This document shows, one piece after another, positions 1,871-24,194 of a stretch of 24,634 nucleotides of DNA (within the stretch, counting starts at the first letter, position 1; every line of letters begins with the position of its first letter). The position numbers and the translations under genes are program-made. The notes below the pieces were generated by a model that saw nothing but the letters and a program-made list of their open reading frames with translations, searched no databases and was not told where the DNA came from. Origin of the DNA: a virus; the IMG/VR virus record IMGVR_UViG_3300028829_003836, positions 1-24,634 of that record; one strand, given 5' to 3'.

Positions 1871-3352
1871 ATGAAAACAGATCGACAGCCGTACCTCGAC
1901 CGAGCGTACGACGCTGCCGAGTTAACAATCCCCCACCTCCTCACTCGCCACACGACGAAGAATGCCGAGCTCTATACTCCTTGGCAATCCGTCGGTGCTG
2001 ATGGAGTGAACACCCTGTCTGGTAAACTACTCTTAGGATTGATGCCTCCAGCCAACCCTTTCTTTCGGCTTCGGATGGACCCTAAGATCACCAACGAGTT
2101 AGACCAGGTCGAAGGCGGAGCAGACGTTAAGGTCCTCTTAGAGCGCTCCTTGAGTAACTTTGAACAGACCGTGATGAACGACGTCAATGTGACGGGCGAC
2201 CGCACAAGCTTAGTCATCGCACTGAAACACCTACTGATCGCTGGTAATGTAGCCATGTATATGCCTCCTAAAGGGCAGATGCAGCTATATAAACTAGATC
2301 AATACACTGTCTTGAGAGATCGCGCAGGTAATGTCCTACGCTTGATCATCAAGGAAGAAATCGCGCGAGGCGCCCTGCCTGCCCCTATCGCTGACGTAGC
2401 GAAACCTAACGGCACGCTCGGCGCACAAGATGAACCCTTGTCTCTCTACACTGTCGTAGAGCGCATGGGCGATTTCATTAACGTGTACCAAGAGATCGAA
2501 GATGTCGAAGTTCCTGGTTCCCGCGGTAATGTTCCGGTCGAGAGCTCCCCTTACCTAGCCCTTCGTTGGTCTAGGATCGATGGCGAGAGTTACGGGCGAG
2601 GACGAGTCGAGGAATACCAAGGCGATATTCAGTCCCTCGAAGGGTTGAGTAAGGCTCTAGTTGAGGGTGCATCAGCCGCGTCTCGATTGTTAATTCAACG
2701 CGACCCTAACGCTCAAGTTCAAGCTGAGACTGTCGAGAGCGCCGAGAACGGTGACATCATCGACGCTGCTCAGGGCGACCTGTCGTTCCTCCAAGTGAAT
2801 AAGATGCAGGATTTCTCTGTAGCCTCGTCTATGGCAGACAAGCTCGAGAAGCGCATAGGGCGTGCCTTCATGGTAACCTCAAGTATCCAAAGGGATGCTG
2901 AACGGGTAACCGCGGAGGAGATCAGACAACTTGTGTCAGACCTAGAGGATACCTTAGGTGGTGCCTTCTCTATCCTGGCGCAGGAGTTTCAGTTACCGTA
3001 CGTTAAGAGACGTATTGCTATCATGCAGAAGCGTGGAGATTTACCTCAGCTTCCGTCTGACGAGATTACACCTAGCATTGTGACCGGCCTTGAGGCTATT
3101 GGTCGCAATCAAGAATTAAACAAAGCCGTGCAGTGGGCACGCTTAGGCTCAGAGGTCCTAGGACCAGAGACCTTTGCGAGCACTATTTCCACTGGGCGCT
3201 TCTTAGCTTTCCTCGGGACCAACCTCGGTTTCGTCGAAGCTTCCGACATCACCAAGACCGATGGCGAAAAGCAAGCTGAGAACCAGGCGCAGCAGCAGCA
3301 GCAAATGTTGCAGCAACTAGGCCCTGCACTAATGCAGAACCGAGGCGCTTAA
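1871..3352 (+). CDS. Portal (head-tail connector) protein, T7 gp8-like
   Basis: Forms the dodecameric portal at the capsid vertex for DNA passage and tail attachment. This 493-residue product (T7 gp8 536) matches the family over its length: PYLDRAYDAAELTIPHLL, YTPWQSVGADGVNTLSGKLL, the ALKHLLIAGN block, RIDGESYGRGRVEEYQGD, FMVTSSIQRDAERVTAEEIR and LEDTLGGAFSILAQEFQLP, then a Gln-rich tail. The first ATG of the frame is 1871, four bases after the stop of the upstream gene, so coupled re-initiation is plausible. However, the same frame is open back to 1799, and the five codons directly before this ATG read SVYER, continuing the T7 gp8 homology. The real N-terminus may therefore be longer, for example from a CTG at 1832. 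Confidence 0.96.
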   Translation: MKTDRQPYLDRAYDAAELTIPHLLTRHTTKNAELYTPWQSVGADGVNTLSGKLLLGLMPPANPFFRLRMDPKITNELDQVEGGADVKVLLERSLSNFEQTVMNDVNVTGDRTSLVIALKHLLIAGNVAMYMPPKGQMQLYKLDQYTVLRDRAGNVLRLIIKEEIARGALPAPIADVAKPNGTLGAQDEPLSLYTVVERMGDFINVYQEIEDVEVPGSRGNVPVESSPYLALRWSRIDGESYGRGRVEEYQGDIQSLEGLSKALVEGASAASRLLIQRDPNAQVQAETVESAENGDIIDAAQGDLSFLQVNKMQDFSVASSMADKLEKRIGRAFMVTSSIQRDAERVTAEEIRQLVSDLEDTLGGAFSILAQEFQLPYVKRRIAIMQKRGDLPQLPSDEITPSIVTGLEAIGRNQELNKAVQWARLGSEVLGPETFASTISTGRFLAFLGTNLGFVEASDITKTDGEKQAENQAQQQQQMLQQLGPALMQNRGA

Positions 3353-3374: not shown

Positions 3375-3749
3375 ATGGCTAAAACCCCGACTAAACCTGA
3401 GGCTCAGTCTAAGACTGTGGAGAAACCCACTAAAGAAGTCACGACTGAACAACCCCCGGTAGCAGCAACACCTGATATGACGACGCTGCTAGCAGAGGTC
3501 CGCTCACTGACAGATCGTCTAGTGATCGCGGAAGCCAAGAACACCGACCAAGCCGCTACCGACGGCGTGGACCGAGTACGCCCGGCTGGAAGTGTTATCG
3601 TATCTTCTCGCATGGGCAACGAACAGAACCAGTTGTCCGACCCTACCTGGAAAGGCGTACGCCGCCCTCCTAAGGTGGACCAAGTCGAAGCTACTATTTC
3701 TCGAAACGGGCGACTAACGAAGTTCCCAATGACGGTGCAGCATAACTAA
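3375..3749 (+). CDS. Unknown small protein between portal and scaffold
   Basis: A 124-residue protein that I do not recognise. Residues 1-35 are Lys/Thr/Pro/Glu-rich and probably disordered. A short helical segment follows (LLAEVRSLTDRLVIAEAK, about 38-55, possible coiled coil). The C-terminal half (WKGVRRPPKVDQVEATISRNGRLTKFPMTVQHN) looks compact and basic. The start has a strong Shine-Dalgarno, AAGGAGA at 3366-3372, and the stop overlaps the scaffold start as TAATG. The position between portal and scaffold suggests a role in head assembly or a minor virion component, but that is inference from context only. Confidence 0.8.
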   Translation: MAKTPTKPEAQSKTVEKPTKEVTTEQPPVAATPDMTTLLAEVRSLTDRLVIAEAKNTDQAATDGVDRVRPAGSVIVSSRMGNEQNQLSDPTWKGVRRPPKVDQVEATISRNGRLTKFPMTVQHN

Positions 3750-4510
3750 TGTCTGACGTCACAATTCCAGCTAAGTTCCAGAACGAAGACGGCACAACTA
3801 ACGTTGAGGCCCTCGCCAAAAGCTACACCGAACTGGAACGTCAACGTACTCAGCAACAGCAACAGCAAGTGACGCCACCAGCGGCAGCACCGGCTCCCCC
3901 TGTAGCTGCGCCGGTCGACCCTAACGCTGGCTTAACCTTTGACTCCACTCCTGCTCCTGTCGTGCCTCTCGCACAGACCTTGGAAGCAGCTTGGGTCGAG
4001 GCCTCTAAGTCTGGCGGTGTCCTCACCCCGGAGCAGGTGCGAACTTTCACCGCCAAAGGTGTCGAAGCGTCTGTCCTCGAGAGTCATCTAGCAGGCCGTC
4101 GGGCTATGCAAGAAGGGGCGCGTAGCGCTATCTTCAATGCAGCGGGCGGTGAGCAACAGTACCAAGCTATGCTGACTTGGGGTAAGTCCAACTTAACTCC
4201 AGGCGAACAAGCCGCGCTTAACAACGCTGTTAAGTCCGGTGATGCTTCGCAGATCAGCCTAGCGGTTAGTGGGGCCATGCAACGTTATAACACCGCTACA
4301 GGGCAGGAGGGCCAAGTGTTGACTGGTCAGAATTTCGCTCCCAATCCGTCCACCGAAGGCTACGCCACGAAGCGGGAATGGATTGATGCGATGAAAGACA
4401 ACCGCTACAGAACCAATCAGACTTACCGCGCCGAAGTGCAGGCTAAGTTTGAAGCCAACCCCGGTGTTGCGGATCAACTCAATGAACAGAATTGGCAAAA
4501 TGGGCAGTAA
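3749..4510 (+). CDS. Capsid assembly scaffolding protein, T7 gp9-like
   Basis: A 253-residue scaffold (T7 gp9 about 307) that directs procapsid assembly around the portal and leaves before maturation. The N-terminus VTIPAKFQNEDGTTNVEALAKSYTELERQ is the conserved opening of phage scaffolds of this group. It is followed by a Gln run (about 34-40) and a Pro/Ala linker (42-75), then a helical body with LTPEQVRTFTAKGVEASVLE and a domain TWGKSNLTPGEQAALNNAVKSGD (about 147-170). The C-terminal segment GYATKREWIDAMKDNRYRTNQTYRAEVQAK is the family's recognisable end. The start is fixed by the TAATG overlap with the preceding gene. The lipoprotein gene starts inside its 3' end. Confidence 0.92.
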   Translation: MSDVTIPAKFQNEDGTTNVEALAKSYTELERQRTQQQQQQVTPPAAAPAPPVAAPVDPNAGLTFDSTPAPVVPLAQTLEAAWVEASKSGGVLTPEQVRTFTAKGVEASVLESHLAGRRAMQEGARSAIFNAAGGEQQYQAMLTWGKSNLTPGEQAALNNAVKSGDASQISLAVSGAMQRYNTATGQEGQVLTGQNFAPNPSTEGYATKREWIDAMKDNRYRTNQTYRAEVQAKFEANPGVADQLNEQNWQNGQ

Positions 4511-4790
4511 GCTTTTAACAGCAGCGGTTCTCGCTCTAACTCTCTCAGCTTGTGGGTCGTTTGACGCCCTTCAAGGACGGGTGGCTGAGCGGGGCTCTAT
4601 GTTTTGGGATGAAACCCTCGAGACAGCAGAGTTTACCCAATGCCGCGGTGCTTCCGTCGGAGCAGTGGCTCGACGTTATTGGCAGGACGCAGATCGGAGA
4701 GAAGCCTGGGCTACCCTCTGCTCTACGGCTGACGATATCGTTCCCCCTCAGCCCGGTACATTCAACCCCTTAACTGGTGAGGTCGAGTAA
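4482..4790 (+). CDS. Small phage lipoprotein, function unknown
   Basis: A 102-residue protein with a lipoprotein signal: basic N-terminus (MNRIGKMGSK), hydrophobic core LLTAAVLALTLS, and lipobox LSAC with Cys24 as the predicted lipidation site. The mature part is about 78 residues and has a conserved-looking segment ETAEFTQCRGASVGAVARRYW and a second Cys in WATLCS. The gene overlaps the scaffold 3' end. ATG 4500 is an equally possible start and leaves the signal intact; a TTG at 4449 is unlikely. It is not proline-rich like Rz1-type outer-membrane spanins. A lipoprotein inside the head module is unusual. Superinfection exclusion, envelope modification or lysis help are possible, with no direct evidence for any of them. 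Confidence 0.78.
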   Translation: MNRIGKMGSKLLTAAVLALTLSACGSFDALQGRVAERGSMFWDETLETAEFTQCRGASVGAVARRYWQDADRREAWATLCSTADDIVPPQPGTFNPLTGEVE

Positions 4791-5251
4791 TGTTCAGGAA
4801 ATTCCTAGCTACTCTAACACTCACCCTTGCACTATGCACTGGGTTTGTCTCTGTAGCCGAGGCCGGGTATGCTCTACCTGCTCGACATATCACAGAGACC
4901 AGCCAGGATAAAACGTTCGCTCTATTCGTTACGACCACTCCAGTCGGAGACTTCTTGGTCCTCGCGGAGAACGTCAGCGGTGATTGGCTCGGGCGTTATA
5001 CTTCAACCCCTCGTTATAGTAACGGCGGACTTGAGGGTTTCATTCAGTCTACCTACGGCGGAAATGTAAACGCTTGGTTGGTTGATGAGACCGTAAAGGT
5101 CAATGCTACCTTGCAAGAGTTACTTACAGCGCCTGAGGATTTACCCCCTCCGGTTGCTGGTAATTATCTCGACGCGGTGAATAACATCCTTGTCCAGGAG
5201 TGGACCCTTGCGCCCACCGCGGACGGGAAGTTAGAACTTCGCCGTAAATAA
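4790..5251 (+). CDS. Secreted/periplasmic protein of unknown function
   Basis: A 153-residue protein beginning with a clear Sec signal peptide: MFRKFLATLTLTLALCTGFVSVAEA, with predicted cleavage after AEA (residue 25) before GYALP. The mature protein of about 128 residues looks like a small beta-rich domain (TFALFVTTTPVGDFLVLAENVSGDWLGRYT) and has no catalytic motif that I recognise. The ATG overlaps the lipoprotein stop as TAATG, so the two exported proteins are probably made together and may act together in the periplasm or at the outer membrane. It is followed directly by a hairpin-rich non-coding stretch. Assignment as exported is secure; the function is unknown. Confidence 0.78.
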   Translation: MFRKFLATLTLTLALCTGFVSVAEAGYALPARHITETSQDKTFALFVTTTPVGDFLVLAENVSGDWLGRYTSTPRYSNGGLEGFIQSTYGGNVNAWLVDETVKVNATLQELLTAPEDLPPPVAGNYLDAVNNILVQEWTLAPTADGKLELRRK

Positions 5252-5499
5252 CCAAGGAGCAGAAAGCTCCGCCACCCTGCCGACTACCGGCGGTGGCTGC
5301 TGCTATCAGGTTTCAGCATTAAATAGAACCTGCATATAGACCTCTCTTTAGAGGCTATCGAAGCCCAGTATGGGCACCGACTACCACGACCACCACGAAT
5401 AGTTCGAGGCCGTCCTGCTGGATGATAACCTAAGGCTTGAAGTGATAATGGTTCGGAGTGTCAAAACTTCCTATCAATCACAACAAGGATACCAGTCAC
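5252..5499 (+). promoter_or_regulatory. Hairpin-rich leader upstream of the major capsid gene
   Basis: A non-coding stretch of 248 bases with six consecutive potential stem-loops: GGAGC/GCTCC (5256-5270), GCCACC..GCCG/CGGC..GGTGGC (5271-5297, directly abutting the first), CTATCAGGTT/AACCTG..ATAG (5303-5339), CCTCT/AGAGG (5341-5354), GCCCA/TGGGC (5363-5375) and CGAA/TTCG (5396-5406). An AAGGAG at 5254-5259 is buried in the first hairpin and has no start codon at a useful distance. No good copy of the phage promoter is present. Likely a structured RNA leader, processing site or stability element for capsid mRNA; that role is inference. Confidence 0.55.
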
Positions 5500-6438
5500 A
5501 TGGCTGCACCTAATATGACAGTTGACCGGGTTGGTCAAGTCAACCAATCTGGTGACGTCGACGCTCTGTTTCTAAAACAGTTTGGCGGCGAAATCATGGC
5601 GATCTTCGAGAATAAACTCGTGATCGAAACCGCTCACATGCAGCGGAATATCTCTAACGGACAGTCGGCACAGTTCCCGGCTATCGGGCGCGCGACTGCT
5701 GCGTACCATACACCTGGTACAATGCTGGTTGGGCAAAACCTAAACCACGCTGAGCGCGTGATCACCGTTGATGACTTGCTCATCGCTGACGGCTTTATCG
5801 CTCAGATCGACCAGTTGATGAACCACTACGACGTTCGCGGTCCTATCGCTCAGGAACTCGCGTACGCCCTAGCGAACACGGCTGACTCCAACAGTGCTCA
5901 GGTAACTGTTAACGCTGCTCGCGCTTCTGCCACTGTCTCTGACGGTGTCGGTGGAACCGTGATCACAGACGCAGATGCTGACACTAACGGCACGTCGCTG
6001 GTAACATCATTGTTCACGGCTGAACAGAACCTTAGTGAGAAGAATGTCCCCGATGAAATGCGGAGCATCTTCCTTAAGCCTGCTCAGTGGAACTTGCTGG
6101 TTCAAGAAGACGGCTTGATCGACAAGGACTTCACCTCACAAGGTGGTGATATCCAAACCAACGCTATCGGCTTTGGTGTCGCAGGCATGCAGGCTGTTAA
6201 GACGAACAACGTGCCTGGCACGAACGTCACGACCGGCCCGTCTGCCTACCAAGGAAACTTCTCGACGACTGTAGCGTTCGGTTCACACCCAAGTGCGTCC
6301 GGTACTCTCTCGTTGCTCGGCGTTACAGCGGAAGCTGACTACTCCATCTTCCACCAAGGCTGGCTCTTGGTCGCGAAGTATGCGAAGGGTCACGGCATCC
6401 TGCGCCCAGAAGCAGCCTTTGAGATTAAGACTGCATAA
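5500..6438 (+). CDS. Major capsid protein, T7 gp10A-like
   Basis: HK97-fold major capsid protein, 312 residues (T7 gp10A 345). It shows the family's segments in order: DALFLKQFGGEIMAIFENK, NISNGQSAQFPAIGRATAAYHTPG, HAERVITVDDLLIADGFI, DQLMNHYDVRGPIAQELA, the central IFLKPAQWNLLVQ and the C-terminal AKYAKGHGILRPEAAFEIK. The start chosen is ATG 5500, where AAGGAT (5484-5489) precedes MAAPNMTVDRVG and the length matches T7. A GTG at 5458 would add 14 residues unlike the family. No 10B-type frameshift extension is possible, because the terminator begins 10 bases after the stop. It is probably the most highly expressed gene in the window. Confidence 0.97.
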   Translation: MAAPNMTVDRVGQVNQSGDVDALFLKQFGGEIMAIFENKLVIETAHMQRNISNGQSAQFPAIGRATAAYHTPGTMLVGQNLNHAERVITVDDLLIADGFIAQIDQLMNHYDVRGPIAQELAYALANTADSNSAQVTVNAARASATVSDGVGGTVITDADADTNGTSLVTSLFTAEQNLSEKNVPDEMRSIFLKPAQWNLLVQEDGLIDKDFTSQGGDIQTNAIGFGVAGMQAVKTNNVPGTNVTTGPSAYQGNFSTTVAFGSHPSASGTLSLLGVTAEADYSIFHQGWLLVAKYAKGHGILRPEAAFEIKTA

Positions 6439-6447
6439 TCGACCCAA

Positions 6448-6489
6448 GGGGGAACTCCAGGCTTCGGCTTGTGGTTCCCCCTTTTTTTT
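6448..6489 (+). terminator. Strong intrinsic terminator after the capsid gene
   Basis: GGGGGAAC (6448-6455) pairs perfectly with GTTCCCCC (6474-6481). The inner part CCAGGC-TTCG-GCTTGTGG extends the stem with wobble and a UUCG loop, and a run of eight T follows (6482-6489). It lies 10 bases after the capsid stop, the same place as Tphi of T7, and would lower expression of tail genes relative to capsid. Confidence 0.93.
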
Positions 6490-6506
6490 CTTTGTAGGGA
6501 TACCTA

Positions 6507-16920: not shown

Positions 16921-17937
16921 ATGGCTGACTCATTCGTTCAATACTCAGCGAGTGGATCGACAGATACCTTCACTGTGACGTTCCCCTTTATCTCAAGGGA
17001 TGACGTTTCAGTGGCGGTTGATGGTGTAGACGATCCCACTTTCACATGGACTAGCGATACCATCGTTGTCCTCTCCTCTACACCAACCGCTGGGCAGATT
17101 GTCGATATCCGACGGTCTACGCCGAGCACTAACGCGGCTGTTGATTTCTCTGATGGGTCAGTCCTGTCCGAGAACGCACTAGATACGAACACTCAACAAC
17201 TGCTTTACATCGGGCAGGAACAGTTAGACGCCGCTACGGTGTCCCTTAAGGTAGGCCTTTCAGGTCACTACGAGGGAGCTTCGGTGCGGATCACTGATAT
17301 CGCTGATCCTGTGGCTGATCAAGATGTCGTTACTAAGGCCTTCTTAGATGCGTCCCAGTCGGCTCAATTGTCGGTTATCAACGCCGCGGTAGCTTCAACA
17401 GCAGCAGACGTTGTATTAACTAATGCTGATGTTGTTTCAACCAACGCTGATGTCTTGCTTACGAATGCTGATGTCGTTTCAACCAACGCTGATGTTGTCA
17501 CAACGAACGCTGATGTGGTCTTAACGAATGCTGACGTTGTCCTCACAGGACTTGATGTTGTTGCAGCGGCAGCTTCAGCAGCTACAGCGGTAGCCGCAGT
17601 GAACGGCGGGCGAACATATGTCGATAAGAGCACCTCGTTCTCTCTAGGGGTAACTGGTGGCGGATTTCAAGGAAGCTTTGCGGTAACTGCCGCAGCAGCG
17701 TTGGATATCTCTCTCGACGGCTCCTATACCCCAGCCGAAGGTGACTGGTTTGAGATCAAAGACATCGCAGACACATTCGGAACGTACCCCGTGCGTCTCG
17801 TTCTCGATAACACAGAGTTCTATGACCCTGATGGTGACACCTTCAGCCATGTCAAGCTCGACTTCAAAGAAACATTATCATTGCGCGGAACTTCATACTT
17901 CTTCGTTTATGAAGCCGCCAAGTGGAGATACCTATAA
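16921..17937 (+). CDS. Tail fibre protein, T7 gp17 N-terminal type
   Basis: A 338-residue fibre (T7 gp17 553). Residues 1-110 are the T7 fibre N-terminal attachment domain (FVQYSASGSTDTFTVTFPFI, VAVDG, VVLSSTPTAGQIVDIRRSTP, LDTNTQQLLYIGQEQLD). Residues 160-215 are eight consecutive heptads based on TNADVVx, a likely trimeric coiled coil. Residues 229-338 form a short probably beta-rich tip (VDKSTSFSLGVTGGGFQGSF...FFVYEAAKWRYL). The tip is too small for an enzymatic or large receptor domain, so receptor binding may be passed to the glycine-rich protein next door. The ATG directly abuts the previous stop, with AGGAAA upstream. The stop overlaps the next ATG as TAATG. Confidence 0.92.
   Translation: MADSFVQYSASGSTDTFTVTFPFISRDDVSVAVDGVDDPTFTWTSDTIVVLSSTPTAGQIVDIRRSTPSTNAAVDFSDGSVLSENALDTNTQQLLYIGQEQLDAATVSLKVGLSGHYEGASVRITDIADPVADQDVVTKAFLDASQSAQLSVINAAVASTAADVVLTNADVVSTNADVLLTNADVVSTNADVVTTNADVVLTNADVVLTGLDVVAAAASAATAVAAVNGGRTYVDKSTSFSLGVTGGGFQGSFAVTAAAALDISLDGSYTPAEGDWFEIKDIADTFGTYPVRLVLDNTEFYDPDGDTFSHVKLDFKETLSLRGTSYFFVYEAAKWRYL
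17398..17565 (+). repeat. Eight in-frame 21-bp repeats in the fibre gene
   Basis: Eight 21-base units encode TAADVVL, TNADVVS, TNADVLL, TNADVVS, TNADVVT, TNADVVL, TNADVVL and TGLDVVA (fibre residues 160-215). Third bases vary between copies, so the array is not freshly amplified, yet the protein repeat is strict. Spacing of Ala and Val by 3 and 4 fits a coiled-coil shaft whose length could change by whole heptads. Confidence 0.9.
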
Positions 17938-18842
17938 TGGCTGATAAGAATTTAAGCGCGATCCTCGGAGCCGGTGGCGGAGGATCGAAAGACACCTTGG
18001 TTGAATATACATCCGGTGCAGGCACATACACTGTACCGGCTGGCGTGTACTCCATCCTTGTTAGACTCATCGGCGGCGGGGGCGGCGGTGGCGGCGGTGG
18101 CGGCGGTGGGGCGAACACTGCAAGTAACATGCAAGGTGCCCCTGGTGGTGGTGGAGGCGCTTGTGGCGAAGTCATTGAACAGGTTATCCAGGTCACGCCG
18201 GGAGATGTAATCCCTTACGTTGCTGGCGCTGGTGGTCCAGGTGGTACTGGCGGTGCTGGTGGCTCTGGCGCTGGTAACTTTAGCGGCGGACACGGCGTGG
18301 CGGGTACGGCTGGTTCGTTGACTTCTTTCGGGTCATTAACAGCAGCCCCAGGTGGTGCTGGTGCTCGTGGCCCAGGAGCTACCGGCGCGTCACAAATGAA
18401 CCCTGGTGTGGCGGGCAGCGGGGCAGAAACAGGTGACCAAGTTGTTGGGCTTGAATTTAAGGGATTAAACGGAACACCGAGTAAGTATGTTCTCCAGAAC
18501 AGAGGTGGTGCTGGTGGTGGTGGTGGTGCTTCCGCAGAAGTATTTAAGTTTAGTATCGCGGACAGAACCCCTGGAGAAGTGACAATACCAACCACTACGA
18601 GCGGGACCGCTGGTGGTGCTGGCGGTGGTGATGTTGGTGACGGCGGCGCGGGCGCGGATATGGTCACAGGGGCGAATGATGGCCTTGATGGGTCTGACGC
18701 TGCTGCCTCTGTTGGCGCCGGTTCTGGTGGTTCTGGCGGTGGTGGTGCTGGTGGCATAAATAGCACAAGCGGAACCCGTACGGGTGGTGATGGTGGTGAT
18801 GGTGCCGCTGGTGTCGATGGACTTATTCAGGTTTGGAGTTAG
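17937..18842 (+). CDS. Glycine-rich tail adhesin-like protein
   Basis: A 301-residue protein with very high Gly content. It starts MADKNLSAILGAGGGGSKDT and continues with a beta-type segment (LVEYTSGAGTYTVPAGVYSILVRLIG, 21-46), a run of 13 glycines (46-58), then repeated GGAGG/GGTGG blocks separated by short beta-like or polar stretches (ACGEVIEQVIQVTPGDVIPYVAGAG, LTSFGSLTAAPGGAG, FKFSIADRTPGEVTIPTTTS) and a terminal VDGLIQVWS strand. Phage Gly-rich domains of this kind occur at fibre tips and in T-even gp38-type adhesins, where polyglycine-II helices display receptor loops. The start at ATG 17937 is set by TAATG coupling to the fibre gene, so it likely caps or supplements the short fibre. 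Receptor-binding is inferred. Confidence 0.85.
   Translation: MADKNLSAILGAGGGGSKDTLVEYTSGAGTYTVPAGVYSILVRLIGGGGGGGGGGGGGANTASNMQGAPGGGGGACGEVIEQVIQVTPGDVIPYVAGAGGPGGTGGAGGSGAGNFSGGHGVAGTAGSLTSFGSLTAAPGGAGARGPGATGASQMNPGVAGSGAETGDQVVGLEFKGLNGTPSKYVLQNRGGAGGGGGASAEVFKFSIADRTPGEVTIPTTTSGTAGGAGGGDVGDGGAGADMVTGANDGLDGSDAAASVGAGSGGSGGGGAGGINSTSGTRTGGDGGDGAAGVDGLIQVWS
18072..18110 (+). repeat. GGN microsatellite encoding 13 glycines
   Basis: Thirteen consecutive Gly codons, mostly GGC and GGT in a repeating GGC-GGC-GGT pattern (residues 46-58 of the Gly-rich protein). Trinucleotide slippage here would change polyglycine length without breaking the frame. Shorter GGT runs recur at about 18510-18530 and 18720-18750. 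Confidence 0.85.
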
Positions 18843-19566: not shown

Positions 19567-19828
19567 CAAAGGTACTCTTGAAGGTATCCACGGGCTCCTA
19601 GCAGCCTGTATATCCAATCGCCTCGAGGAAGCCGCTGAGGAGGGGACAGATAATCCCTTAAGCTCCGCGGAGATAACGGCTATCTCTCGCTTCTTAAGTG
19701 ACAACGATATCTCCGCTGTTCTCGGCCTAGACGATAGCAACTCCCTCGCTGCTACTCTACAAGGGCTTATCGACAGCGCAGGGGAAACCTTCGAACCCGG
19801 ACAACAGCCTAAGGAATACCATGGGTGA
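19553..19828 (+). CDS. Terminase small subunit, T7 gp18-like
   Basis: A 91-residue DNA-recognition subunit of the packaging motor (T7 gp18 is 89). The sequence (GTLEGIHGLLAACISNRLEEAAEE...LSSAEITAISRFLSDNDISAVL) is helical with the family's usual arrangement. Position immediately before the large terminase and length agree with gp18. Start ATG 19553 has a perfect AGGAGG at 19542-19547, inside the end of the holin-like gene; an upstream in-frame TTG at 19472 is rejected. The stop overlaps the large subunit start by 8 bases, so the two subunits are probably co-translated. T7 has Rz (gp18.5) between these two genes, and here it is absent. Confidence 0.88.
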   Translation: MALADKGTLEGIHGLLAACISNRLEEAAEEGTDNPLSSAEITAISRFLSDNDISAVLGLDDSNSLAATLQGLIDSAGETFEPGQQPKEYHG

Positions 19829-21608
19829 AACCCTAGCATCTAGCACAAGCTTGACCCAAGATCATGAAGGCTTAGGCTTACTGGCTGACTTTAGAAACGT
19901 ATTGAAATTGGTATGGGAGCACTTGGGGCTCCCGTGTCCAACCGATGTACAACTCGACATAGCCTACTATCTACAGTACGGTCAACGTCGGATGGTTATC
20001 GAGGCCTTTCGTGGGATTGGTAAGTCGTGGATAACGGCTGTCTATGTCCTATGGCGCCTTCTGATTAACCCCCAACTTGAGTTCTTGGTTGTCTCTGCGT
20101 CTAAAGAACGCGCCGACCAGTTCTCTATCTTTGCTAAACGTATCCGGGATGAAATGCCGTTGTTCGCTAGCCTCAAGGCCCGGCCTGATCAACGCGACAG
20201 TAACATCGCCTGGGACGTCGGACCTCACTTAGCCTCTCATGCACCCAGTGTTAAATCTCTAGGCATCACCGGTCAGTTGACTGGTAGTCGTGCTGATGAG
20301 ATCATCGGAGACGACGTCGAGGTCCCTAATAACTCAGCCACCCAAACACAACGCGAACAACTCAGTGAACGCGTCAAAGAGTTCGACGCTATCCTGAAAC
20401 CAGGGAAGGACACCCGTGTCCGGTTCCTTGGTACGCCACAGAACTTTGAGAGCCTCTACAATCGCCTAGGAGGCCGCGGGTACACCATGATGGTGTGGCC
20501 TGCACAGGTACCTACCGAAGCGGAAGGACTGACCTACGGGCCGACCCTAAGCCCTTTCATACGCAGTATGATGAGCGCCGGGGTAGTCCCAGGTATGCCC
20601 ACCGACCCCGAGCGTTTCGACTCTCAGGACCTAATGGAACGTTTCGTGTCCTACGGGCGCGCTGGGTTCCAGCTTCAGTTCATGTTGAATACTCAGCTAT
20701 CGGACGCTGATAAGTATCCGCTCAAGCAGAGTGATCTTATTGTCATGGACTTGGACCAGTACCGAGGCCCTCTTAACCTCTCCTGGGCTCGTACGGATAA
20801 ACTTAGGTACAACGAGTTGCCTAACCTCGGGTTCAACGGAGACTACTTCTACCAACCTATGGGGTATGGATCGGATGATCCTAATCAACCCGACACTGCC
20901 CCTTATACAGGGTCGGTGATGTCTATCGATCCCTCTGGTAAAGGTAAGGATGAGACCAGTATAGCTGTTGTTAACATGCTATATGGGCACCTATTCTTGC
21001 TCCAGAGTAAGGGGTACATGGGCGGGTATGATGAGGATACCCTAGGTGATATCGCCAAGCAGGCTGTACAGTACGGGGTTAATACCATCGTCATCGAAGA
21101 TAACTTCGGTGGAGGTATGTTCGCCCAGCTACTGCGCCCGATTTTGATCGAAGAAGGATGGGGAGGCTCCATTGAGGAGATCAACCACCAGGCTCAGAAA
21201 GAGAAGCGGATTATCGATACCATCGAACCTGTGATGAACCAACACAAACTGGTGGTCAGTCGCAGAGTTATCGACGAGGATCATCGTTCTGCGCGGGACC
21301 TAGAGGAGCATGTAGGGGACCGCTGTATGAACTACAGTCTGTTCCACCAGCTTACTCACATTACCTATGATCGAGGCTCCTTGCTCCAGGATGACCGATT
21401 AGACGCCCTCTCTATTGGGATCGCTTACTGGGTTGATCGTATGGCGCAGGACGGCAAGAAGCAGGCCGAAGGATACCGTCAGGGTCTCAAGACCAAGGCT
21501 CTGGAGGAGTTCATAGCCCTCGCTCAAGGTCGTAAACCTCGCCAGACCGGAGGGGTAAAAGCTCGCCCAATCGGGTCTCAGAGGCCTCGAGTCGGCGCCC
21601 GGCGCTAA
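19821..21608 (+). CDS. Terminase large subunit, T7 gp19-like
   Basis: A 595-residue ATPase/nuclease that drives DNA into the procapsid and cuts concatemers (T7 gp19 586). The N-terminal ATPase has the Walker A-type motif FRGIGKS (63-69) and the acidic Walker B region ADEIIGDDVEV (158-168). The RNase H-like nuclease domain shows SIDPSGKGKDETS (369-381, Asp370), VIEDNFGGGMF (424-434) and QDDRLDAL (523-530) as the acidic metal ligands. KFLGTP-type motif III is present as VRFLGTPQNFESLY. An AAGGAAT ribosome site precedes ATG 19821. It is full length with no missing key residue. It closes the conserved late block, and a second copy of the phage promoter follows. Confidence 0.97.
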   Translation: MGETLASSTSLTQDHEGLGLLADFRNVLKLVWEHLGLPCPTDVQLDIAYYLQYGQRRMVIEAFRGIGKSWITAVYVLWRLLINPQLEFLVVSASKERADQFSIFAKRIRDEMPLFASLKARPDQRDSNIAWDVGPHLASHAPSVKSLGITGQLTGSRADEIIGDDVEVPNNSATQTQREQLSERVKEFDAILKPGKDTRVRFLGTPQNFESLYNRLGGRGYTMMVWPAQVPTEAEGLTYGPTLSPFIRSMMSAGVVPGMPTDPERFDSQDLMERFVSYGRAGFQLQFMLNTQLSDADKYPLKQSDLIVMDLDQYRGPLNLSWARTDKLRYNELPNLGFNGDYFYQPMGYGSDDPNQPDTAPYTGSVMSIDPSGKGKDETSIAVVNMLYGHLFLLQSKGYMGGYDEDTLGDIAKQAVQYGVNTIVIEDNFGGGMFAQLLRPILIEEGWGGSIEEINHQAQKEKRIIDTIEPVMNQHKLVVSRRVIDEDHRSARDLEEHVGDRCMNYSLFHQLTHITYDRGSLLQDDRLDALSIGIAYWVDRMAQDGKKQAEGYRQGLKTKALEEFIALAQGRKPRQTGGVKARPIGSQRPRVGARR

Positions 21609-21630: not shown

Positions 21631-21652
21631 CAATTACGGACCCCTATAGCAA
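21631..21652 (+). promoter_or_regulatory. Phage RNA polymerase promoter, copy 2
   Basis: Exact 22-base copy of 1088-1109, core AATTACGGACCCCTATAG, predicted +1 at G21649. Bases 21641-21658 can also form CCCCTAT-AGCA-ATAGGGG, so the start region is self-complementary here but not in copy 1. It lies 22 bases after the terminase stop, like T7 phiOR near the right end, and would transcribe the lipase cluster and the terminal region. Confidence 0.82.
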
Positions 21653-21899: not shown

Positions 21900-22538
21900 G
21901 TGAACCTATCCCAAACCTGCGTCCTCCTTAGCGAGCAGGCGTATAGAGACACGCCCGCCCCGGACGTACTAGCCAGGGTCGGAGCGAAGCTACACGACAC
22001 GTTCGACGACGGAGATACCCAAGGTTTCCTTGCGCGGCTCTCTGACGGCACGTGGGTCGTAGCCTTCCGCGGAACAGAGCGTGGCCTCGGCGATATCAAG
22101 ACAGACCTAGACGCAAGGTTCTACCGAACGTCAACCGGTCGTAAAACCCACCGGGGTTTCCTCAATGCCTGGCAGAAGATAAAGCCTCAGGTCTACCCAA
22201 CGCTGCCTGTAGACTCGAGCGCAATCTGCTTCACAGGTCACTCCCTAGGCGGCGCCTTAGCCACTGTCGCGGCAGACGATCTGCACGCCCGAGCGATTAC
22301 CTTCGGTAGTCCTAGGGTCTCCCATAAGGACATGCAACGGTCGGCCCCACACATGAGATATACCTATGGATACGATATCATCCCCCGCCTCCCTACTCGC
22401 CTGCGTGGTTTTGCTCACGCTGGTCGCCATGTCCACCTAAAGAACCCTGAGCCTTGGTACAAGTTTAGACCAAGCAAGTTCTTCACAGACCACCGTATTA
22501 GTAGATATGTCGATGCCCTCGGGCTGACTGTCGCCTAA
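21900..22538 (+). CDS. Class 3 (alpha/beta-hydrolase) lipase
   Basis: A 212-residue alpha/beta hydrolase of the lipase class 3 type. The oxyanion strand WVVAFRGTE (52-60) and the nucleophile elbow TGHSLGGALA (112-121, Ser115) are canonical. Asp159 in YDIIPRLP and His198 in DHRISRY complete a plausible triad, and ITFGSPRVS is the usual class 3 block. No signal peptide is seen, so it would be cytoplasmic until released or passed through a holin lesion. The start is a GTG at 21900 with only a weak upstream AAGG; no in-frame ATG fits better. A phage lipase next to the terminase is unusual. Outer-membrane or phospholipid attack during lysis is an attractive inference, since no spanins are visible in this window. 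Confidence 0.85.
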   Translation: MNLSQTCVLLSEQAYRDTPAPDVLARVGAKLHDTFDDGDTQGFLARLSDGTWVVAFRGTERGLGDIKTDLDARFYRTSTGRKTHRGFLNAWQKIKPQVYPTLPVDSSAICFTGHSLGGALATVAADDLHARAITFGSPRVSHKDMQRSAPHMRYTYGYDIIPRLPTRLRGFAHAGRHVHLKNPEPWYKFRPSKFFTDHRISRYVDALGLTVA

Positions 22539-22946: not shown

Positions 22947-23417
22947 ATGCATATAGCGATATACGACGACTTCCTGGATGACCCAGATCAACATGTCAAG
23001 GATATCCTGAAGGGTACGTTCGCTGATCTTCAGCTTGGCCCCGACTTGTTCCGCGGCATCCAACTGCGCGCAATCGACAGCGCAGCCTACAAGCTACGAC
23101 AGCTCCTCCCTGGCTACCATGTCGCCCACAACTTTGTGCGCAGGAGTCCCTTGGGTCAACCTGAGCCTCACCTGGTGCATACCGATGAGATGATGGGGGA
23201 TGTCACTGCATTGCTTTACCTCTGTGCGCTATCGCCAGAGCAGGACGGCACCACACTCTATGACAGCCAAGGTAGACCTAAGGTTAACCTTAAGGCTGCC
23301 TATAACCGATTGGTAGTGTTCGACGCCAAGGAACCGCATAGTCGTAACATTGTGGAGAACTTCGGCGAAGGTAAGGATGCTAGACTGGTGCAGGTTATGT
23401 TTTTACGTGAGGTTTAG
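22947..23417 (+). CDS. 2-oxoglutarate/Fe(II) oxygenase-like protein (DUF6445-type)
   Basis: A 156-residue protein with the double-stranded beta-helix iron motif: HTD (His78, Asp80) in PHLVHTDEMMGDVTALLYL and the distal His131 in FDAKEPHSRN. Arg146 in DARLVQVMFL is positioned to bind the 2-oxoglutarate carboxylate. The DGTTLYDSQG turn (100-109) fits the DUF6445 group of small oxygenase-like proteins as I remember it. The substrate is unknown; phage members might modify a host protein, a nucleotide or a small molecule. ATG 22947 has only a weak AAGAG upstream. It is the last gene before the repeat-rich terminal zone and has no coding neighbour for about 530 bases. Confidence 0.75.
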   Translation: MHIAIYDDFLDDPDQHVKDILKGTFADLQLGPDLFRGIQLRAIDSAAYKLRQLLPGYHVAHNFVRRSPLGQPEPHLVHTDEMMGDVTALLYLCALSPEQDGTTLYDSQGRPKVNLKAAYNRLVVFDAKEPHSRNIVENFGEGKDARLVQVMFLREV

Positions 23418-23471: not shown

Positions 23472-23550
23472 CGCGCAGCCATTCCCCCCGTGGCCCTAGG
23501 CCTACCCAGGGGTGCACCCAGGCCCTTCAATCGCGCACAGGTAGGGGAAA

Positions 23551-23647
23551 CCCAAGGCTTGACCCAAGGCCTACCAAGGGTTTCATGTGTCGTGCCAAGG
23601 CTTGACCCAAGGCTTGACCCAAGGCTTACCAAGGGTTTCACGTGTCG
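23551..23647 (+). repeat. CCCAAGGCTTGA tandem array within a 30-bp direct repeat
   Basis: Units CCCAAGGCTTGA occur at 23551, 23595 (lacking the first C) and 23606, with variants CCCAAGGC(C/T)TA at 23563 and 23618. Each sub-array ends in CCAAGGGTTTCA(T/C)GTGTCG, giving a 30-bp direct repeat (23563-23592 and 23618-23647) with two differences. It resembles in kind the short CCTAAAG repeat arrays SRL and SRR flanking the terminal repeat of T7, which suggests a genome-end function. The antisense and sense ORFs across it are composition artefacts. Confidence 0.85.
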
Positions 23648-23661
23648 CAGGGTGATGGGTG

Positions 23662-23691
23662 GCGTTGGGTTTAGCGTTGGGTTTAGGTTTA
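23662..23691 (+). repeat. GCGTTGGGTTTA tandem repeat
   Basis: Two perfect 12-base copies (23662-23673 and 23674-23685) followed by a half unit GGTTTA. A related GTTTAGCGTTAGG lies at 23412-23424. The unit is telomere-like by composition, but no special function is claimed. Confidence 0.8.
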
Positions 23692-23799
23692 GGCGTACAC
23701 GTTCCATACACCTAGGCCGCCCCTTAACTGACCGACACTCCGGCACACGCTATACCAGCGGTCTCTCTATTAGTTAGTCCTAGGTCACCCGTTGCGGTG

Positions 23800-24143: not shown

Positions 24144-24158
24144 GCCAGCCCTTAGCGG

Positions 24159-24194
24159 GAAACCTAGGGTTAACCCTTACTGGCCCTAGGTTTC
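24159..24194 (+). repeat. Perfect 11-bp inverted repeat enclosing a promoter-like remnant
   Basis: GAAACCTAGGG (24159-24169) pairs perfectly with CCCTAGGTTTC (24184-24194) across 14 bases. No T-run follows. The interior begins with the palindrome GGGTTAACCC (24167-24176), and 24167-24190 resembles promoter copy 1 with one deletion. It could be a terminator for the small gene or a relic of a phage promoter. Confidence 0.75.

Follow-up and report, generated by a model that had tools for sequence, protein, structure and literature searches.

A covarying two-hairpin leader RNA of major capsid genes in T7-like podoviruses

Introduction

T7-like podoviruses of cyanobacteria, SAR11 bacteria and roseobacters are among the commonest viruses of the sea. 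How a shell protein is over-expressed without a T7-type promoter before its gene is left unexplained in the papers that we found. The question is raised in a sharp form by the 248-nt gap (positions 5252 to 5499) in front of the capsid gene of one virus record, IMGVR_UViG_3300028829_003836 from IMG/VR, which was analysed over its positions 1 to 24,634 and is called the window here. A preliminary description of this DNA had read the gap as an undescribed structured RNA. We therefore examined whether the RNA is real, whether it is conserved and what it might do for the capsid gene.

Results

The late region and its relatives

The 24.6-kb record comprises the late genes of a T7-like podovirus; the features discussed here are collected in Table 1. 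Among the 1421 phage records that match the window major capsid protein (MCP), the best identity was 49%, so that no close relative of this phage is known, and a search for close relatives by capsid protein alone found none. The comparison was therefore built, by way of an alignment, on distant relatives: 10 phage records and 80 viral contigs, whose capsid proteins are 42-53% identical, supplied the MCP leaders that we read.

Table 1. Positions of the features of the window, with the basis of each assignment
Feature	Position	Strand	Basis and remarks
Probable phage RNA polymerase promoter CAATTACGGACCCCTATAGCAA	1088-1109	+	exact repeat at 21631-21652; 2 matches against 0.06 expected; nearest found upstream of MCP
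Portal	1871-3352		late block of the window
Scaffold	3749-4510		late block of the window
Two abutting stable hairpins, GGAGC(AGAAA)GCTCC (5256-5270) and GCCACC..GGTGGC (5271-5297)	5256-5297	+	sequence, fold
P1, bulged hairpin ATAG-A-CCTCT(CTTT)AGAGG-CTAT	5336-5358	+	layout as in relatives; sole P1-pattern match on both strands, 0.07 expected in shuffles
P1 5' bulge	5340	+	fold; presumed equivalent of the LUZ100 T15 bulge
P2, long rod-shaped hairpin around the conserved tip	5379-5462	+	RNA fold, similar rods in relatives; weakly supported below the tip
Conserved P2 tip: (R)GC, CGTCC TGCT GGATG, ATAA CCT	5405-5433	+	covariation in relatives; pattern match
Terminal loop TGCT, deviating from YNMG	5416-5419	+	comparison with relatives
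ATAA facing invariant C5410; corresponds to the near-invariant AYAA of the asymmetric loop	5425-5428	+	alignment A5
AAGGA, likely MCP ribosome-binding site, outside P2	5485-5489	+	sequence
MCP gene, ATG at 5500	5500-6438	+	phrog_267 match, 1.5e-70; 1421 phage records match
Intrinsic terminator after MCP: long GC hairpin, T8	6448-6490	+	sequence; fold -27.2 kcal/mol, z -4.2
Terminase	19821-21608		late block of the window; tail genes lie between MCP and terminase

Other features of the window were recorded in passing. Between scaffold and MCP, a 153-aa frame with a signal-peptide-like start (4790-5251) has no relative in phages, PHROGs or Pfam. Six tandem 21-nt repeats (17383-17550; about ADVVSTN, seven residues each) follow the T7 tail-fibre N-terminal domain in the tail-fibre frame, and a 306-aa glycine-rich frame with GGTGGTGG repeats (17922-18842) matched nothing in Pfam or PHROGs. 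The frame at 21900-22538 has a class 3 lipase domain (PF01764, 2.9e-17), which is unusual for a T7-like late region, and 22947-23417 gave a weak 2OG-Fe(II) oxygenase / DUF6445 match. Near the right end (23491-23694), near-identical direct repeats (CCAAGGCTTGACCCAAGGC and others) with a spacing of about 12-69 nt possibly mark a terminal or replication region.

Structure of the gap before the capsid gene

Six consecutive stem-loops had been reported in the gap, and hairpins are indeed present at 5256-5270, 5271-5297, 5308-5334, 5336-5358 and 5363-5375, with further pairing to 5462. The Shine-Dalgarno sequence described as sealed in a stem is also there, as an SD-like AAGGAG (5254-5259) in the first stem. 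The gap had been said to hold no ORF; only two plus-strand ORFs of at least 20 aa start in it, one being a frame of 23 codons at 5442 and the other the MCP frame itself, read from an alternative GTG. Positions 5240-5505 fold at -87.6 kcal/mol, compared to -68.9 ± 4.8 for shuffled sequence (z = -3.9, 0/200 shuffles).

Two other parts of the preliminary description fared less well. The density of stem-loops had been said to exceed that between other genes of this phage; in a scan of 490 plus-strand segments of 150 nt the gap does fold well (z -3.8 for the segment from 5251), but it ranks only 7th, and several coding segments are equally extreme. The folding-energy signal lies mainly in 5101-5400, and the excess of the gap comes mostly from its 5' half, whereas the conserved P2 half (5379-5462) is only mildly stable (z -1.7). 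The six stem-loops had also been taken as a unit, whereas the hairpins at 5256-5297 were recognised in the leader of no relative and were rejected as the functional unit; what is conserved is P1 together with P2. The gap is a real structured RNA, to which the six stem-loops were a clue and not the conserved unit.

A degenerate tRNA was considered as well, as LUZ100 and RHEph01 have a tRNA-Asn in this gap. This candidate was rejected, since ARAGORN and an Rfam tRNA search of the window gave no match.

Architecture and covariation in relatives

Most MCP leaders of the relatives carry the pattern GC-[4-5 bp]-YNMG-[4-5 bp]-AYAAY about 85 nt before the start codon, and the letters of the stem are free. 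As a whole, the element combines P1, a bulged hairpin, with P2, a hairpin shaped like a rod. P2 is tipped by a stem of 4-5 bp with a YNMG tetraloop, set above an asymmetric loop of an invariant C facing AYAA, and its terminal loop lies a median of 85 nt from the ATG.

The covariation analysis on relatives that had been proposed for this locus was performed, and covariation was strong. Two outcomes that would have spoken against the RNA, missing covariation and a folding energy like that of shuffled sequence, were thus not observed. We chose 47 non-redundant leaders by stem, loop and tail only and tested the pairs across the AYAA bulge pair by pair. As the inner stem had served in seed selection, the three outer pairs provide the cleanest test: outside the selection, -2:5 was paired in 98% of the leaders (z 7.2), -3:6 in 87% (z 6.2) and -6:9 in 85% (z 4.5). 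A CM alignment of 65 sequences showed standard pairing in 96.9% of cells and a covariation score of 0.83, compared to 0.23 when shuffled and at most 0.18 when slid, with the same result on A4. Mixed stem lengths had misaligned the stem in the MAFFT alignment A2, and the alignment was rebuilt from 4-bp stems only (A3); about ten relatives, among them LUZ100 and Pasto, have a longer terminal stem with loop and base unchanged. The tip pairs include 10 G-U and 1 A-C. G-U being far above A-C, it is the plus (sense) strand that folds, as RNA.

The unpaired letters are equally constrained. In alignment A5 the C is conserved in 100%, and the A positions of the AYAA loop in 100%, 100% and, for the last (A/C), 89%. 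A YNMG loop is present in 96 of 98 non-redundant leaders, mostly as TGCG, TGAG or CGAG, with letter frequencies that are biased by the selection score; loop position 4 is an invariant G in the relatives. Below the tip, a tandem U-U/U-C mismatch is often followed by an irregular, group-specific rod (GAAC..GUUC, CAC..GUG and similar). P2 flanks in their native combination pair somewhat better than chimeras do (mean z -0.41 ± 0.17).

P1 is found 20-60 nt upstream and has a lower stem, a 5' bulge of 1-2 nt, an upper stem and a small loop. Its region folds better than shuffled sequence, with a mean z of -1.8 compared to -0.5 in a control further upstream (p 2e-7). A bulged P1 with a score of at least 14 was seen in 30% of relatives and 9% of control sequence. 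P1 is therefore real but variable, and at only 30% versus 9% a cleavage at the bulge, as discussed below, may not be general.

Two annotations near the element deserve mention. tRNA genes repeatedly lie just upstream of it (L003 2125-2200, L005 2240-2313, L075 2150-2301 and L080 2187-2258). In LUZ100, the annotated 42-codon CDS gp40 (L003 2365-2493) coincides with the P2 rod and probably does not represent a gene.

The window copy

The plain core pattern has a single match in the window on both strands (5411; 0.33 expected). Both this match and the only P1 pattern of the 24.6 kb are located in the 248-nt gap, ordered and spaced as expected; the terminal loop is 84 nt from the ATG, the range expected for a tip being about 70-110 nt before the MCP gene. 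The pairs G5409-C5429, G5408-C5430 and A5407-T5431 are formed, -2:5 and -3:6 included, and the outer pairs -5:8 and -6:9 are not. Model R1 placed its best window match at the tip (9.8 bits, E 2.2), and with model R2 the tip ranked fourth (7.8 bits, E 5.9); neither match is significant alone. We count the window copy as divergent because its loop is TGCT while nearly all the leaders of the relatives carry YNMG. Judged from its sequence, the gap very likely holds a divergent member of a capsid-leader RNA family.

That the CM does not find the window copy significant alone is what would be expected of an ordinary, functionless gap that happens to be rich in hairpins. This explanation is hardly credible, as it leaves to chance the covariation and the MCP linkage in relatives, as well as the arrangement of the sole core and sole P1 pattern in the gap.

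Specificity and distribution

Of the 72 relatives searched with model R1, 59 gave a match at the MCP leader; matches elsewhere numbered 2 in 388 kb. Nearly all complete or long records tested have a single R1 match, before MCP. Positive phages include the cyanophages S-TIP37, P-SSP6 and P-SCSP2, the SAR11 phages HTVC011P and HTVC025P, roseophage CRP-114, RHEph01 and BB8; the long stem of LUZ100 gives this phage a weak score. No R1 match was obtained in T7, gh-1, Pasteurella Pa7, Cronobacter Dev-CD or Desulfovibrio ProddE, and some relatives (L007, L048 and L098) seemingly have neither the element nor a visible substitute.

The exact 20-mer of one stem variant (RGCCCTCTGMGGAGGAYAAC) occurs in at least 120 viral contigs, and in 1 of 84,980 bacterial and archaeal genomes, there inside a coding gene. 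It stands before a T7-like MCP in 117 of 123 places, and of the 6 remaining places 5 are too close to the end of a contig; because the contigs were chosen by the motif, this count shows linkage and not frequency. As a DNA marker, the 20-mer thus picked out T7-like capsid genes with hardly an error.

Phages with the element infect cyanobacteria, SAR11 bacteria, roseobacters, rhizobia, Bordetella and Pseudomonas, and compensatory mutations preserve its shape in a very large number of distant phage relatives from ocean, soil and freshwater. The group of T7, gh-1 and Pa7 falls inside the element-bearing lineages (97/99 support), on a long branch. In T7 and gh-1, a promoter immediately precedes gene 10, and a swap of the element for a promoter in their lineage fits these observations but is not proved.

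At the computational level, these comparisons show an element of P1 and P2 with a covarying tip stem, formed by the sense-strand RNA and linked to MCP. Rfam 15 had no match in the window, and the 15 relatives searched gave tRNAs only; literature searches, of partial coverage, found no description of the element. The view of the gap as an undescribed structured RNA is thus upheld by the covariation and the lack of an Rfam match, and the element appears to be new as a family.

Promoters and transcript ends

No phage promoter had been evident in the gap, and this agrees with our results: CAATTACGGACCCCTATAGCAA, which resembles the T7 promoter TAATACGACTCACTATAG, is the sole repeated T7-promoter-like sequence of the window, and its copies stand before the structural block (1088) and after terminase (21631). 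A weaker relative lies near 24155-24186. There is no copy near 5252-5499, the nearest promoter-like repeat being 4.4 kb upstream of MCP. A sigma-70 or phage promoter inside the gap was rejected, as the scan stayed at chance level and the promoter-like repeat lies elsewhere.

Transcript ends were taken from the published annotation of one phage, LUZ100, whose transcriptome was determined by ONT-cappable-seq (PMC10134795). Its terminators are annotated as 3' end -60 to +40, and the ends were derived by that offset; as a check, five intrinsic terminators gave ends at or beside T-runs. T14 falls 1-2 nt before the 5' end of tRNA-Asn, as does an RNase P-type cut, so the data record processing too. 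T15 is at genome position 21030 (L003 nt 2324), the second of the two P1 bulge nucleotides, with a position inferred to ±1-2 nt. We estimate the chance of one of 22 ends falling so near a given 2-nt site at about 0.002. An endonuclease cut fits T15, because the 5' arm of a hairpin is not where termination or 3' trimming leaves a 3' end. No other end was mapped from T15 to the terminator behind MCP, and therefore the remainder of the element is retained in the MCP message. The nearest LUZ100 promoter is 0.6 kb upstream, before the tRNA. LUZ100 has mapped RNA 3' ends both at the tRNA 5' end and in P1, as if the gap were a processing zone.

The end-mapping method used for LUZ100 tails 3'-OH ends. 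That such a method recorded the LUZ100 3' end argues against a self-cleaving ribozyme, and this candidate, which has no Rfam ribozyme match, was set aside as unlikely.

T7 has its promoter at this same place and T15 could be a premature termination, so a signal acting on DNA or on transcription (promoter, pause, terminator or antiterminator) was weighed. We consider it improbable, with some likelihood left for an antitermination role: the pairing is kept with free stem letters and with G-U over A-C at 10:1, as in single-stranded RNA, P1 has no T-run, and the promoter-like repeat of the window phage is elsewhere. More improbable still is an independent small RNA or packaging-type RNA that leaves the gap and acts in trans. 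The element is compact, conserved, free of ORFs and single-copy in each genome, as such an RNA could be; but the LUZ100 RNA stays in the MCP message, strict linkage to MCP within about 85 nt would be superfluous for action in trans, and no Rfam family matches.

Discussion

Processing hub, mRNA stabiliser and independent small RNA had been offered as functions. The first two fit best, because of the mapped LUZ100 3' end in the P1 bulge, and the third is less likely, because LUZ100 has no mapped transcript end from the element to the end of MCP. We propose that the capsid-leader element is a cleaved, protective 5' leader of the MCP mRNA, and give this proposal about an even chance of being correct. 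It is based on the promoter positions, the LUZ100 ends, the phylogeny and the unimproved accessibility of the ribosome-binding site (RBS). MCP would be transcribed within a long late transcript, which a host or phage endoribonuclease would cut at the P1 bulge. The downstream product would start with what remains of P1, followed by the P2 rod, still attached to MCP, and end at the terminator behind MCP. Its folded 5' end may protect this short message and so allow over-expression of MCP without a promoter of its own; a candidate protein that recruits cleavage or protects the product probably docks at the conserved tip. Against the cleaved leader stand the atypical window copy, with its TGCT loop, unformed outer pairs and low CM scores, transcript ends that come from a single phage, a P1 that varies and is short for RNase III, and the relatives that seemingly lack the element.

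The T7 gene 10 leader boosts translation. That precedent and the position in the leader of the most expressed gene would suit an element whose fold exposes or hides the capsid RBS, or serves as a ribosome stand-by site. We regard such translation control as rather unlikely, because in 97 relatives the RBS region is no more open with the native than with shuffled upstream sequence (accessibility 0.49 and 0.52), and P2 ends about 20-40 nt before the RBS. Opening or hiding of the RBS by the element was rejected, as there was no consistent effect on accessibility.

The P2 tip could instead be a protein operator, bound by a phage protein such as capsid, scaffold or RNA polymerase and tuning MCP translation or mRNA fate, much as the coat proteins of RNA phages bind an operator hairpin. 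By analogy it has the look of a protein-binding site, being a small hairpin with free stem sequence and invariant unpaired bases, and its tie to MCP across phages with unrelated hosts speaks for a partner that the phage encodes or that all hosts share. We hold this to be the least unlikely of the rival readings, but still unlikely, since the tip is some 85 nt from the start codon, brings no consistent helpful change at the RBS, and would leave P1 and the mapped 3' end unexplained. In a wider form, which we offer tentatively and with considerable doubt, the tip would be an RNA operator recognised by a conserved protein of the phage, be it capsid, scaffold or RNA polymerase, which ties the synthesis of capsid to assembly or to processing of the message; this would apply to a large proportion of the T7-like phages in the environment. 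If true, it would be the dsDNA-phage counterpart of the coat-protein operator.

Found at the capsid gene of phages with unrelated hosts, a single-copy covarying RNA suggests that these phages have a step of post-transcriptional control in common, one that can be tested directly.

Comparison with known systems

The closest counterpart in place is the T7 gene 10 leader with phi10, likewise a structured 5' leader of a podovirus major capsid mRNA between the scaffold and capsid genes. In contrast to the window, which has no promoter there and another, covarying fold, that leader is made from a promoter directly upstream and has no P1/P2 homologue. Similarly, RNase III sites of the T7 group are internal-loop hairpins in late mRNA, a putative one, R10 of gh-1, is annotated at the same gene, and the LUZ100 3' end in P1 suggests endonucleolytic cutting. 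However, R10 comes directly after a promoter and lacks the P1/P2 signature, and P1 is shorter than known RNase III sites.

Like the P2 tip, the coat-protein operators of the MS2/R17 type are small hairpins close to a capsid gene, with a short stem, a tetraloop and unpaired bases that are conserved. They differ in the letters of loop and bulge; the present element belongs to dsDNA phages, lies about 85 nt from the capsid's own start and would bind a protein only by analogy. The cyanophage leader RNAs wcaG, manA and PhotoRC-II are in Rfam and stand before metabolic or photosynthesis genes (PMC2864571). They too are structured families recognised by comparative genomics of phages and marine metagenomes (PMC2864571), whereas the element described here has no Rfam match and precedes the capsid gene. 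By kind, it belongs with the cis-acting structured leaders of phages.
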